From Solemya velesiana gill symbiont (GTDB lineage: Bacteria; Pseudomonadota; Gammaproteobacteria; Chromatiales; Chromatiaceae), in contig NZ_MPRJ01000012.1 in the NCBI RefSeq assembly GCF_002020805.1, forward strand, positions 1-43,781: a DNA stretch of 43,781 nt, in the 5' to 3' direction. Shown piece by piece: positions 35,602 through 43,781 of the stretch; the first letter of the stretch is position 1; every line of letters starts with the position of its first letter. The notes below the pieces were generated by a model. It ran no database searches. It was not told the origin of the DNA and saw nothing but the letters and a program-made list of their open reading frames with translations. Position numbers and translations under genes: made by a program.

Positions 35602-35826
35602 TTACTTTCCTTGCAGGGTCTCTTTGGCTTCTTCGGCTTCCTTGAGGCCATGCATGAGTTCAGGTATCGCTTTCAATATTTGTATGATGCCGAAAATCGC
35701 AATGCCATGATGTGCGCCGATGGATGGCTCTCCAAGGGTCTCTATAATCTCGTTGCCTGCGGTTGCAAGCAGGATCAGGCCGCTAAGAATATTGAGGAAT
35801 GGGCTTTGGGTGATTCGCTTTAGCAT
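35602..35826 (-). CDS. Small membrane protein, two hydrophobic segments
   Basis: 74 residues from ATG 35826 (AGAAAGG seven bases upstream; ATG 35832 also possible). The segments FLNILSGLILLATAGNEII and HHGIAIFGIIQILKAIPELM are separated by a short polar loop, and the tail is Glu/Lys-rich (KEAEEAKETLQGK). I do not recognise a named family. It sits 20 bases after the interrupted methyltransferase on the same strand. Confidence 0.65.
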   Translation of the reverse strand: MLKRITQSPFLNILSGLILLATAGNEIIETLGEPSIGAHHGIAIFGIIQILKAIPELMHGLKEAEEAKETLQGK

Positions 35827-35845
35827 AGTCATCCTTTCTCGATCC

Positions 35846-36757
35846 TTATGGTTTTTTACGGGCCACCACCATAATCTCAATCTCGTCAAGATCGATGGTT
35901 CTTCTGCCCCAGTTACCGGCGGTACCTCCCCAGATATCAGTGACGGTAAGGCCGGCCATGGAGCAGAGCAGGGTGAGTTCCGTCGGGACGCCCCCACGCT
36001 CCCTGGTGCTGATGGGTGGCTCCCCTTCGGCAGGTGGATATTCGGCAGCCTCAACCAGCGTCAATGGATCGAAGCGACCCGCTTCGACGTCCTGGTATCT
36101 GCGTATCATGGCTGCAGCATTGAGGACTGTAAGTATCACCGTGGCACCAGGCTTCAGGCTACGGGAGATGTTCTGCAGTATATTCAGTGGCTGATCTATG
36201 GGGTCGTCTGCTTTTCCAAGCAGGCCGAAAGCACCTTCACAGAGGCAGACGGCGGCATTAAACTGATCGGCAAGTCTGAAGCGTGTGGCATCGGGGTGGA
36301 TCCATTCCACCTCCACCCCCGCCCTGGTTGCGGCTTCCACGGCCTTGGCGAGCATGCCGGAAGAGAGATCCAGCCCTGTCACCTTGTAACCACGCTTCGC
36401 CAGCTCAATGGCGTGACGGCCGGTACCGCATCCGATATCGAGAATGGATTGGCCCTCTGTCAGGGCAAGTTCTTCAAGCAGGAAATCGACCGCTGACCGC
36501 CATGGAAGGCTGGAAGCCGAGGCGGTTAGTCCCCGGTAGCCGTGAGGCCGCACTGCTTACCCGTCGTGTGCGCAGCGCGCCAGAGGGGAAGCAAAGTAGG
36601 CATCCGAACACGGGATGTCCCGAAATCTTTCACGAGGTCGAAGACTCGCTTGTTCATTGAGGGTGTTCCTGGTAAAGATATTCTCTTCGTAATATGGGGC
36701 ATGAACATCAAAGAATTCTTCCCATGTGGATCTTTCCGGCATGCTGATCTCCGTCAC
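35846..36757 (-). pseudogene. SAM-dependent class I methyltransferase interrupted by a 162-bp repeat
   Basis: The N-terminal piece MTEISMPERSTWEEFF...ENIFTRNTLNE (36757-36653) and the remainder VDFLLEELALTEGQSILDIGCGTGRH... (from 36490) are in the same reading frame and would join directly as NTLNE-VDFLLEEL, the normal family sequence. Between them lie 162 extra bases (54 codons) with a TAA at 36559-36557. Motif I ILDIGCGTGRH and the following GLDLSSGML are intact. The downstream part could start again at GTG 36553 within the repeat but would lack the first ~35 residues. Substrate unknown. Confidence 0.88.
36491..36652 (-). mobile_element. 162-bp repeat element, copy 1 (inside methyltransferase gene)
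   Basis: Its limits are set by the break in the methyltransferase protein. On the minus strand it starts CAAGCGAGTCTTCG and ends CCATGGCGGTCAGCG. The 123 bases 36491-36613 match 43649-43771 with 5 mismatches, all transitions. It contains short hairpins (GGCT-GGA-AGCC, GTGTGC-GCA-GCGCGC, CGGGA-CA-TCCCG). No terminal inverted repeats, no open frame for a transposase and no target duplication are visible. The family is unknown to me. Confidence 0.8.
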
Positions 36758-36907: not shown

Positions 36908-39010
36908 TTGAATAGTATCAAACAACAACAAGGGCTTGACCAGGTGCCGGTGACAGCCTTGAAGGGGGTAGGGTCGCGCAATGCCGACAAGCTGGCAAAG
37001 ATCGGTGTGCAGACGGTACAGGACGTGCTGTTTCATCTGCCATTTAGATACCAGGATCGTACCCGGATTACACCCATAGGTGCTTTGCGGCACGGTGACC
37101 AGGTTGTGGTGGAAGGCGAAGTGGAAGCTTCTGATATCCGTTTCGGAAAGCGCCGTTCTCTGCTGGTGCGCATCTCCGATGGCACCGGTGCCATTATCCT
37201 GCGCTTTTTCCATTTCAGCAGTGCCCAGAAGGCGGGTCTATCCCGCGGCGTGCGTCTGCGCTGTTTCGGTGAAGTGCGCAACGGACCGGGTGGTTACGAG
37301 ATGGTACATCCGGAGTATCAGCGGATAGGGGAGTTCGATGACACCGGAATGGAGGAGAGCCTCACGCCGGTCTACCCGACAACCGAGGGAATGCACCAAC
37401 TCACCTGGCGGGGGATGAGCGAAAAGGCTTTGGCGTTGCTTGATACCGACCCGGATGCCCTGCCCGAGTGGCTGCCTGACGAACTATTGAGTCAGTTCAG
37501 CCTGCCGGATCTTGGGCGTGCCATTCGCTATCTGCACCGCCCGCCCCCAGATGCCGCTCAGAATGTCCTGCTGAAGGGAAAGCATCCCGCCCAGCGTCGA
37601 TTGGCATTTGAAGAGTTGCTGGCCCACCAGTTGAGTCTGCGGCTGTTGCGCGAAAAGAAGAATCGCGATGAGGCCCCACCTCTTGAGGCTAGCGGGTCAT
37701 ATACCCGGAAACTGCTTGCAACCCTTCCATTCGAACTGACCCGGGCCCAAGGTCGCGTGATGGGGGAGATACAGAATGACCTCTCCCAGGGGCATCCCAT
37801 GATGCGGCTGGTGCAGGGTGATGTGGGTTCCGGCAAAACAGTGGTCGCGGCCCTGGCAGCACTGCAGGCGGTGGAGGGGGAACACCAGGTGGTGCTGATG
37901 GCGCCTACGGAGTTGCTGGCTGAGCAGCACCTGCGCAGCTTCCAGGCCTGGCTGGAACTCCTTGGGTTGGACGTGGCCTGGCTAACCGGTCGTCACAAGG
38001 GCAAGGCCCGGGAGAGGGTGCTATCGGATATTGCCAGTGGTGTCAGCAAGGTGGTAGTGGGTACTCACGCACTGTTCCAGGAGGATGTGGTATTCGACGC
38101 CCTGGGCTTGGTGATCATCGATGAACAGCACCGTTTTGGCGTGCACCAGCGGATGGCCCTGCGTGAGAAGGGTGCCCGGAGTGGTCGTATCCCCCATCAA
38201 CTGATCATGACGGCAACCCCCATTCCCCGTACCCTGGCCATGAGCGCCTATGCTGACCTGGATGTGTCGGTTATCGATGAGCTTCCCCCCGGCAGAACAC
38301 CGGTAACCACGGTGGTGATCTCGGACAATCGGCGGGATGCCGTGATCGATCGTGTGCGGGCTGCATGCAAGGCCGGACGCCAGGCTTACTGGGTCTGTAC
38401 CCTGATTGAGGAGTCGGAAGTGCTGCAGTGCCAGGCGGCCGAAGATACCGCGGCTCTGCTCACAGAAGCGCTCTCCGAGTTGCGGGTGGGGCTGGTGCAT
38501 GGCCGGCTGAAAGCTGCCGAGAAAGAGGCGGTGATGTCTGCCTTCAAGGCAGGTGACCTGGATCTGCTGGTGGCGACCACGGTTATCGAGGTGGGGGTGG
38601 ATGTGCCCAATGCCAGTCTTATGATTATCGAGAACCCTGAGCGGCTGGGCCTGGCGCAGTTGCATCAGCTGCGGGGACGGGTAGGCCGTGGTACACAGGA
38701 GAGTCACTGCGTGTTGATGTATTACGCTCCGCTTTCTGATAACGCCCAGGAGCGCCTGGCGGTGATGCGCGAAACCAATGACGGGTTTGTGGTTGCCCAG
38801 AAAGACCTGGAGTTGCGCGGGCCAGGTGAGGTGCTGGGTACCCGGCAAACCGGTGAGATGCAGTTTCGTATCGCTGACCTGATGCGCGATCAGCCGATTC
38901 TCGAGCAGGTGCAGAAGGCCGCCATGATGATGCTGGAGCGGTATCCCGAGCGCGTGCCTTCCTTGGTGCGTCGCTGGGTTGGGCACCGGGAGCACTATAT
39001 CAATGCCTGA
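36908..39010 (+). CDS. recG: ATP-dependent DNA helicase RecG
   Basis: 700 residues. Branch-migrating helicase acting at stalled forks. Wedge domain (about 50-170) with PFRYQDRT and FFHFSSAQKAGL; helicase motifs QGDVGSGKTVVA (near 304-313), IIDEQHRFGVHQR, TATPIPRTLAMS, TTVIEVGVDVPNA and QLRGRVGRG are intact. The annotated start is TTG 36908 with no strong ribosome site; the next residues (QVPVTALKGVG) agree with the family, so the true start is close. Confidence 0.94.
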   Translation: MNSIKQQQGLDQVPVTALKGVGSRNADKLAKIGVQTVQDVLFHLPFRYQDRTRITPIGALRHGDQVVVEGEVEASDIRFGKRRSLLVRISDGTGAIILRFFHFSSAQKAGLSRGVRLRCFGEVRNGPGGYEMVHPEYQRIGEFDDTGMEESLTPVYPTTEGMHQLTWRGMSEKALALLDTDPDALPEWLPDELLSQFSLPDLGRAIRYLHRPPPDAAQNVLLKGKHPAQRRLAFEELLAHQLSLRLLREKKNRDEAPPLEASGSYTRKLLATLPFELTRAQGRVMGEIQNDLSQGHPMMRLVQGDVGSGKTVVAALAALQAVEGEHQVVLMAPTELLAEQHLRSFQAWLELLGLDVAWLTGRHKGKARERVLSDIASGVSKVVVGTHALFQEDVVFDALGLVIIDEQHRFGVHQRMALREKGARSGRIPHQLIMTATPIPRTLAMSAYADLDVSVIDELPPGRTPVTTVVISDNRRDAVIDRVRAACKAGRQAYWVCTLIEESEVLQCQAAEDTAALLTEALSELRVGLVHGRLKAAEKEAVMSAFKAGDLDLLVATTVIEVGVDVPNASLMIIENPERLGLAQLHQLRGRVGRGTQESHCVLMYYAPLSDNAQERLAVMRETNDGFVVAQKDLELRGPGEVLGTRQTGEMQFRIADLMRDQPILEQVQKAAMMMLERYPERVPSLVRRWVGHREHYINA

Positions 39011-41720: not shown

Positions 41721-41985
41721 GGCCGTTTCTTCCTCAGTTCTTTGCAACTCGCCATGCTCTGAGAATAGGAGAAAAAGCGAGTTGTTGCGGTTGTGGGGAT
41801 GAGCTCTGGGCTACCCGAATGAAAAGTGGCCCAATAGTTGCAACTTGAGTTGCGTGCGTGGCCGTTGCGGTCTCGATGAGATATTGGATGTCTGTTTTTT
41901 GACGCGTAGTGACTGATTGGGTCGCCAAAAAGCACAAAGCAAGCATTGGGTGTGTCAATTTTCTAACCAGTTGCTTGCGGAATAC
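41721..41985. other. Region between asnA and the truncated kinase
   Basis: 265 bases without a recognisable gene. One frame on the minus strand stays open through most of it and fuses to the kinase, but the sequence (VFRKQLVRKLTHPM...) has no receiver-domain character. GCAACT-CA-AGTTGC is a short palindrome near 41840-41853. It must hold the asnA promoter if that gene is transcribed separately. Confidence 0.55.
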
Positions 41986-43648
41986 CATGAAGCGGAAGGT
42001 TTTCAATACCTCGATGCCGTTCTTTTTCGGCATGTTCATATCGAGGATCACGAGATCATGCTTATTCTCGCTATTTGCCAGTACATCCAGGACCTGTTCG
42101 CCGTCATCGACGATTTCGACCACATGTCCTGCGCGCTCAAGAATGCCTCGGATGACTTTCTGGTTAACTATGTTGTCTTCAGCAACCAGGATGTTGAGAA
42201 TGCGGGCGCTGGCATGGCGCTGGCATGGCGCTGGCATGGCGCTGGCATGGCGCTGGTAATGTTGTGCCAGGGTGACCACGTTCTCTTCGGATTCGTGCTC
42301 ACTGCGTGCGGCGTGTAGGGCATTGAACAGCAGTGTCTTGTCCAGAGGATGGGTGAGTATCGAGGAGTAGATTCCTTCGAGGTCCCGTTCCTGGTCAGAG
42401 CCAGGGTTTTTCGATGTCGCAACTACCAGGGAGAGATGTTTCAGGGCATCGTCGTTTCTTACCATCCCTGCAAACTGCTTCGGCGACATATCGAGCAGAC
42501 CTTCGCCTGCGAGAATGATGCTGTATGGTGCACCATGTTCGCTCGCATCAATCATCAGTGAAAACGCCCTGGCAGAGGTACTGACCCAGTCAAACTCAAC
42601 CTGCCAGTCCCTCAGGGCACGGCGTACCGGTGCTACTTGCTTCTCGTCCATCAGCACCAGCACGCGAGTGTTTTCCAGGGATAGTGCCGACGCTTCGTCC
42701 TCGTCTTTCTTCTGCACGGTCAGTGGCAGCTCAAACCAGAAAACCGAACCCTGCCCCGGTTCACTGGTAACACCGATCTTTCCACCCATCAGCTCTACCA
42801 ACTGCTTGGCAATGGTGGTGCCCAGTCCGGTACCACCGTACTTGCGGATTGTGGATGTGTCTGCCTGTGTGAAATCATCGAAAATGATGCCCAGCTTGTC
42901 TGCGGGTATGCCGATGCCGGTATCTTCCACCTCGAAACGGATGACCGGTTTGTAGGATGTGCCGTCTACTGCCCTGGCGCGCAAGGTTACGGAGCCGCTT
43001 TCGGTGAACTTGATAGCGTTTCCTGCCAGGTTGACCAGTACCTGGCGTAGGTGAAGCGAGTCGCCGCGCAGAAGGAAAGGGGTGCTAGGATCAATTTGGC
43101 TGGCAACTGTCACGCCCTTTTTCTGGCCGGACATATCCAGCATCTGGACGGTGCTGTTGATCAGGGCATGCAGATCGAAGTCTGACTGTTCTATGGAGAT
43201 CTTGCCCGCTTCGATTTTGGATATATCGAGCACGTTGTTGATCAGGCCAAGCAGGGTGTGGGCTGAAATATCGACAGTGCGCACCAGGTCATGTTGTTCC
43301 TCGTCCAGGCGTGTCTCTTGGAGCAAGTCGACCATGCCGATAACACCGTTCAACGGTGTTATCAGTTCGTGACTCATGTTGGCCACTTGGCCTGGCTGGC
43401 ATGGTTCGCCTTCATGATGGCTTCGTACAGTTTTCTAAGCAGGATTGCGATATAGGCGGGCAGCAGTATAAGGAGAATGATCAGGCTGATGCCGATCTCC
43501 TCGTGTTCCATCCACCACGCGCTGGTCAGCAGCACAGCGGTGAATCCGGCAATGCTGAAGGCCGTTGAAATGTAAACGTAGCCCTCGCCATAGCGGAAGC
43601 CGTTGCCAACGATAACCCAGAGATAGATGGCGAACAGGGGGGTGCCAT
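41986..43648 (-). pseudogene. RpfC-like hybrid sensor histidine kinase, decayed
   Basis: Membrane part (43648-43390): DGTPLFAIYLWVIVGNGFRYG and four hydrophobic stretches, resembling RpfC-type sensors. It runs to NHASQAK, then leaves frame near 43386; about ten bases (the SEFL of AKSEFLANMSHE) seem deleted. The kinase frame resumes at ANMSHELITPLNG: the phospho-His is present but the conserved Arg is Ile. The ATPase motifs VNLAGNAIKFTESG, DTGIGIPADK and GGTGLGTTIAK are good. A degenerate receiver and then a true one (NILVAEDNIVNQKV, VILDMNMPKKNG) follow. The latter stops being homologous at about 41986, losing its second half. An 11-bp repeat array lies between the receivers. Confidence 0.82.
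42208..42251 (+). repeat. 11-bp tandem repeat, four perfect copies, in the kinase gene
   Basis: GCTGGCATGGC is repeated at 42208, 42219, 42230 and 42241, followed by a partial unit GCTGG. Unit length is not a multiple of three, so each gain or loss of one copy shifts the kinase frame. Four copies keep the following receiver domain in frame. Confidence 0.95.
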
Positions 43649-43781
43649 CGCTGACCGCCATGGAAGGCTGAAAGCCGAGGCAGTTAGTCCCCGGTAGCCG
43701 TGAGGCCGCACTGCTTGCCCGTCGTGTGCGCAGCACGCTAGAGGGGAAGCAAAGTAGGCATCCGAACACGGCGTGTAGTCA
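43649..43781 (-). mobile_element. 162-bp repeat element, copy 2 (cut by window edge)
   Basis: Bases 43649-43771 match copy 1 at 36491-36613 with 118 of 123 identities. The junction end (GGCGGTCAGCG on the minus strand) is exactly the same as in copy 1, here abutting ATGGCACCC of the kinase membrane domain. The last ten bases diverge from copy 1, so the far end may differ or be rearranged. Confidence 0.85.

Follow-up and report, generated by a model that had tools for sequence, protein, structure and literature searches.

The window analysed here, 43,781 nucleotides (nt) of the Solemya velesiana gill symbiont, is contig C14 of a 2.55-Mb genome assembled in 128 contigs, and the end of the window at 43781 is also the end of the contig. 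It stops inside a copy of a mobile element of approximately 287 nt, which holds no gene in any copy seen. With somewhat better than even confidence, we regard this element as a member of a non-autonomous, non-coding family that moves as a single strand in step with the replication fork, served by a putative enzyme in trans. The window contains two copies, both adjoined by the target motif D-C-N-N-N (non-C at position −5, C at −4).

43649..43781, + strand: left end of the element (nt 1–133 of approximately 287), cut by the contig end; identified by genome matches and the fixed left end
43644..43648, + strand: target motif (GCCAT) adjoining this left end, with the C at 43645; supported by the base preference at −4 given below
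36491..36652, + strand: the other copy, with left-end nt 1–123 joined to right-end nt 249–287 plus TTG; the absent middle is probably an assembly artefact
36486..36490, + strand: target motif (TCGAC) of the other copy

Re-alignment of the two copies (36491–36613 and 43649–43771) gives 96% identity over 123 nt, or 95% over 128 nt without gaps, with 5 differences that are all transitions and a shared start at CGCTGACC (GGTCAGCG on the opposite strand); the 96% identity, the transitions, and the shared terminus are those that an earlier note on this DNA had described. A genome search with the 133-nt query reports 29 left-end matches, and a search with the other end reports 31 right-end matches; since the same unit is matched 29 times, the repeat in the window is far above chance.

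Comparison of the copies shows that both ends are fixed (left CGCTGACCGCC..., right ...GATTTTGGGGACTTGGATGTCCCAAAATCTTTCACGAGGTCGAAGACTCGCTTG). The 287-nt unit is defined by copies spanning nt 1–190 and nt 89–287, with no intact copy assembled in this genome; intact copies in relatives have approximately 281–303 nt, and the size range of the family is approximately 205–320 nt. Among the joined copies of this genome, one side measures 93–101 nt in 13 of 17 cases, and contigs likewise stop at approximately 97 or 190 nt. Because these extents coincide, the short or internally deleted forms are most likely joins made by short-read assembly, probably including the window copy at 36491–36652. Internally deleted, variable copies were thus rejected as a real feature, also in view of the intact copies in other genomes. 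The last 10 bases, which the earlier note took for a possibly variable far end, diverge because the other copy passes at nt 123 into the right end of the same element, probably at an assembly join. The far end is not variable: full elements of other genomes have a fixed right end (...DCTTG), and the variation in this genome coincides with the extents just given. A longer autonomous version was rejected as well, since right ends in relatives lie approximately 220–260 nt from the left end, with none longer within 3 kb. Its two ends, CGCTG and ACTTG, do not form an inverted repeat. At locus L020 (positions 1–440 of contig C25 of the same genome), a left-truncated copy is abutted by the end of a transposase gene, presumably IS1380-like; either something has inserted into the element here, or the assembly has joined the two sequences.

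Flanks of 7 insertions in Escarpia and Lamellibrachia symbionts were sought in sister genomes, and for 6 of them the empty site could be aligned at the junction. All 6 empty sites are exact: the insert runs from CGCTG to CACTTG (or CGCTTC), with neither duplication nor loss of target bases. The proposal of a mobile unit with defined termini is therefore borne out by these sites in sister species together with many copies in many genomes. The opposite explanation, according to which the repeat is an end-of-gene rearrangement or a shared gene segment and no insertion took place, draws on the fact that the contig stops inside the repeat and hides the right junction of this copy. The single fixed left end of copies in many genomes, whether these lie between genes or in genes unrelated to one another, speaks against it, as do the exact empty sites, which refute it for the family; we consider it practically excluded.

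When the element is removed, 44 of 85 insertions show an open reading frame (ORF) of at least 600 nt spanning the joint, compared with 24–32 if the frame is shifted by one or two bases. The restored proteins include what we take to be LpxC, FlhF, a TRAP transporter permease, and a NarX-like kinase. Within ORFs, 18 copies are sense and 26 antisense, and the occurrence of both orientations argues against a spliced intron. One such locus is L082 (symbiont of Escarpia laminata), where a gene reading as lpxC is split by the element; in sister symbionts the site is empty. The gene lpxC is normally essential; the cells behind this metagenome-assembled genome (MAG) may differ in whether they carry the insertion, or a second lpxC copy may be present.

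As for the target, 115 of 117 copies have C at position −4 of the left flank; C is rare at −5, and positions −3 to −1 are variable with T or C favoured at −1. The C at −4 is also found in nearly all of approximately 29 diverse genomes, among them Legionella and members of branches whose 5′ ends differ considerably. In the main branch, the 3′ end of the element itself (D-C-T-T-G) follows the target-motif pattern, with G, A, and C as the last base of 129, 8, and 2 of 139 right ends, respectively. Because motif and 3′ end share this pattern, one enzyme could both excise and insert the element without a scar. Identical elements are found at unrelated target sequences, and the target is therefore not encoded in the element.

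Distribution was evaluated with a covariance model of the 3′ domain, which matches 45 of 369 genomes of the class (roughly a tenth of the sampled Gammaproteobacteria) and 33 of 96 genomes of the family, the weakest of which may be chance matches. A phylum-wide sample at a stricter cut-off has 1 match besides the window's own genome. Carriers include Candidatus Sedimenticola endophacoides, symbionts of Escarpia and Lamellibrachia tubeworms, a Candidatus Thiodiazotropha, several gammaproteobacterial MAGs, and one viral contig. Relatives also occur on two Legionella antarctica plasmids; the IS91 and Tn3 genes near these matches were rejected as partners, as the copies seem to have inserted beside annotated transposase genes or in the gaps separating them. 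The largest number of copies, at least 150, belongs to the closed 4.56-Mb genome G405. In S. endophacoides, 54 of 62 sampled copies at distinct sites are identical and 8 have a one-base difference, which indicates a recent burst. No known plasmid or phage element matches the element of the window. A CRISPR (clustered regularly interspaced short palindromic repeats) array with CRISPR-DR4 repeats (L271:1012-1279) is located a few hundred bases from one element copy.

The consensus fold computed by RNAalifold from 26 diverse members has three domains: a 5′ hairpin that begins at nt 2, a two-armed central junction that is closed by CCCCG/CGGGG, and a 3′ hairpin that stops a few nt short of the right end. 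Compensatory changes are found at 38 of 57 pairs, and the number of double-change cells is 233, compared with 70 ± 8 in shuffled alignments and 19–40 with slid partners. It is the + strand that adopts the conserved fold: it is the more stable one for all 26 of 26 sequences, and 199 G-U cells occur in its structure, with near-invariant G-U at pairs 2-43 and 5-40. This means that one strand, the +, acts in folded form, although the fold alone does not tell whether it does so as RNA or as single-stranded DNA. A match of the element to Rfam 15 was not found for any family at E values up to 1.

Orientation with respect to replication was evaluated mainly on G405, for which GC skew places the origin near 0.1–0.2 Mb and the terminus near 2.6 Mb. 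Among the copies listed for this chromosome, 101 of 142 are co-oriented with the fork (p = 5e-7); the ratio is 62 of 85 after thinning to one copy per 20 kb, and 63 of 90 outside the dense region. This region, 2.53–2.99 Mb on its contig C1, holds 52 of the 142 listed copies in a tenth of the chromosome beside the terminus. The direction of the fork equals the 5′–3′ direction of the lagging-strand template, and the + strand therefore lies within that template. In three other sets, local GC skew is positive on the element strand for 35 of 48, 39 of 61, and 16 of 23 insertions (p = 0.002, 0.04, and 0.09, respectively). For IS200/IS605 elements, orientation follows replication, the terminus is preferred, and the transposase acts on the single-stranded lagging-strand template (PMC5371812).

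Under the fork-coupled explanation, the + strand, folded over its whole length into the conserved three-domain structure, would enter the single-stranded lagging-strand template at replication forks, directly 3′ of D-C-N-N-N. A single enzyme that cuts one strand after this motif would then account for both scarless excision and scarless insertion. The data above establish the ends, the seamless insertion, the target base, the covarying fold, the recent bursts of copies, and the orientation with replication, and from these we infer the single-strand intermediate and the supply of the enzyme in trans. Several observations weigh against this explanation. The orientation bias in draft genomes is weak (p between 0.002 and 0.09), the fold is conserved along all 290 nt and exceeds what end recognition needs, and the 5′ hairpin starting at nt 2 leaves no room before it for a guide of the IS200/IS605 type. 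Besides, one branch ends in ACTATCR, which does not fit the 3′ motif, and no enzyme was found: Y1_Tnp (PF01797) was not detected in carriers G000, G001, G430, and G345, with divergent HUH and Y2 enzymes lying outside the screen.

The enzyme search covered four families in carriers and controls: Y1_Tnp, the reverse transcriptase RVT_1, the IS110 transposase Transposase_20, and TnpB. According to completeness scores, G001, which has the most recent burst, reaches 100%, and G000 only 84%. RVT_1 (PF00078) was not detected in G000, G001, G447, G161, and G070; Transposase_20 (PF02371, DEDD) was not detected in G000, G430, G350, G070, and G066; and TnpB (PF07282) has a match in only 1 of 23 genomes, with IscB outside the screen. 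Thus, no single one of the four screened families can serve all carriers. An all-against-all comparison of flanking ORFs yielded no recurrent neighbour gene; the clusters it produced consist mostly of reading frames that run through the element.

These results also bear on the alternatives that involve a known enzyme. The element may be a derivative of a known one (a palindrome-associated transposable element, or PATE, of IS200/IS605, or a RAYT target) that is moved in trans by a Y1 transposase since lost from some carriers. It shares the seamless, same-strand, lagging-strand logic of these systems, and Y1 genes are present in several carriers, e.g., G405, G403, and G172. The absence of PF01797 matches from four carriers makes this explanation unlikely, above all for G001, which is scored as complete and whose copies are nearly identical and hence recent; the single fixed target base in place of a tetranucleotide also speaks against it. 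Far less probable is that the fold represents the guide RNA of an IS110, TnpB, or IscB-type system. A structured, RNA-like element linked to mobility would suit such a bridge-RNA or RNA-guided element, and an IS110 gene lies close upstream at locus L252. That gene was rejected as a partner, being one case within a cluster of mobile elements; IS110 was not detected in the five genomes given above, TnpB matches only 1 of 23, and identical elements at unrelated targets do not agree with guidance.

A more serious, still doubtful, alternative is mobility as RNA, in which a + strand transcript (ribozyme or ribonucleoprotein, RNP) is itself joined into the single-stranded lagging-strand template before a DNA copy of it is made. 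The same route is open to ORF-less group II introns. The strand-specific conserved fold with its near-invariant G-U pairs, the seamless insertion, the position of the + strand within the lagging-strand template, and the varying last base of the 3′ end all agree with this alternative. However, RVT_1 is unmatched in the five carriers listed, Rfam reports no match to group II or any other family, and sense copies are not in excess, which gives no sign of splicing. The G-U pairs would be equally kept if only one strand of single-stranded DNA were active. In its extreme form, the family would be a class-wide one of self-contained mobile ribozymes or RNPs, in which a folded RNA of approximately 290 nt inserts itself seamlessly into the lagging-strand template 3′ of D-C-N-N-N and host enzymes turn it into DNA, so that neither a transposase nor a reverse transcriptase of its own is needed; this we consider improbable.

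Among known systems, IS200/IS605 elements and their PATEs are similar in seamless insertion 3′ of a short motif and same-strand logic at both ends, as well as in folded ends, orientation with replication, and terminus preference (PMC5371812). In contrast, their target is a tetra- or pentanucleotide, and the element has one fixed base, is folded throughout, leaves no room for a left guide, and is carried by several genomes with no detected Y1. By mechanism, IS200/IS605 is the closest parallel; by membership, the element is not IS200/IS605, because it has no fixed tetranucleotide and several carriers have no detected Y1 enzyme.

ORF-less group II introns show fork-coupled retrotransposition of a folded RNA, seamless insertion into the lagging-strand template, and non-coding copies. 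The element resembles them in its folded, RNA-like strand and in the latter three properties, and differs in its size of approximately 290 nt, the absence of GUGYG/AY ends and of an Rfam group II (domain V) match, several carriers with no detected reverse transcriptase, and no sense bias. REP/REPIN with RAYT, ERIC, Correia, and other bacterial miniature inverted-repeat transposable elements (MITEs) are likewise short, multi-copy, gene-less, and folded. The element, however, has neither terminal inverted repeats nor duplication (0 of 6 empty sites, which also sets it apart from a classical DDE MITE), is approximately 290 nt long, and keeps a class-wide conserved fold; RAYT falls within PF01797, unmatched in G000 and G001. 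HEARO/omega RNA and IS110 bridge RNA are also structured RNAs linked to mobile elements, from which the element differs in having no associated nuclease or DEDD transposase, unrelated targets, and no match to Rfam HEARO.

Despite its wide carriage and its abundance on one chromosome, the element is covered by no Rfam family, and a literature search that lay outside subscription journals, bioRxiv, and ISfinder found nothing matching it. In animal symbionts it interrupts genes, and short-read assemblies break at its copies. With a conserved fold, exact ends, and one fixed target base, it is a directly testable system, and the enzyme behind its movement would be either a new transposase or evidence of RNA-driven mobility in bacteria. 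An insertion that leaves no scar, is coupled to the fork, and needs only one target base would also be a useful tool.

Within the window, the two copies adjoin the following coding sequences.

35720..36490, + strand: 5′ portion of an ORF that the other copy interrupts, with no Pfam match
41734..43386, − strand: RpfC-like hybrid histidine kinase, C-terminal domains HisKA, HATPase_c, and receiver
43387..43648, − strand: hydrophobic kinase segment in a different frame, up to the element junction

Leaving out the element restores the frame of the first ORF for approximately 135 nt more. As for the kinase, its interruption by insertion of the element is likely. What the earlier note says on the kinase is confirmed only in part: the kinase domains are present and a − strand frame (GTPLFAIYLWVIVGN...) stays open up to the junction; its N-terminus beyond the element was not recovered, and no right-end flank in the assembly carries the kinase frame on into a recognisable N-terminus.

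Three minor observations concern the same region. The kinase frame breaks at 43374–43400 beside the near-repeat GGCCTGGCTGGCATGG, independently of the element, which might be a real frameshift or a sequence error. A sub-threshold Rfam match to Ysr141 (37759–38006, − strand) falls in a recG-like helicase gene and probably reflects coding similarity. A short tandem repeat of GGCATGGCGCTG is located within the kinase gene at 42200–42260.
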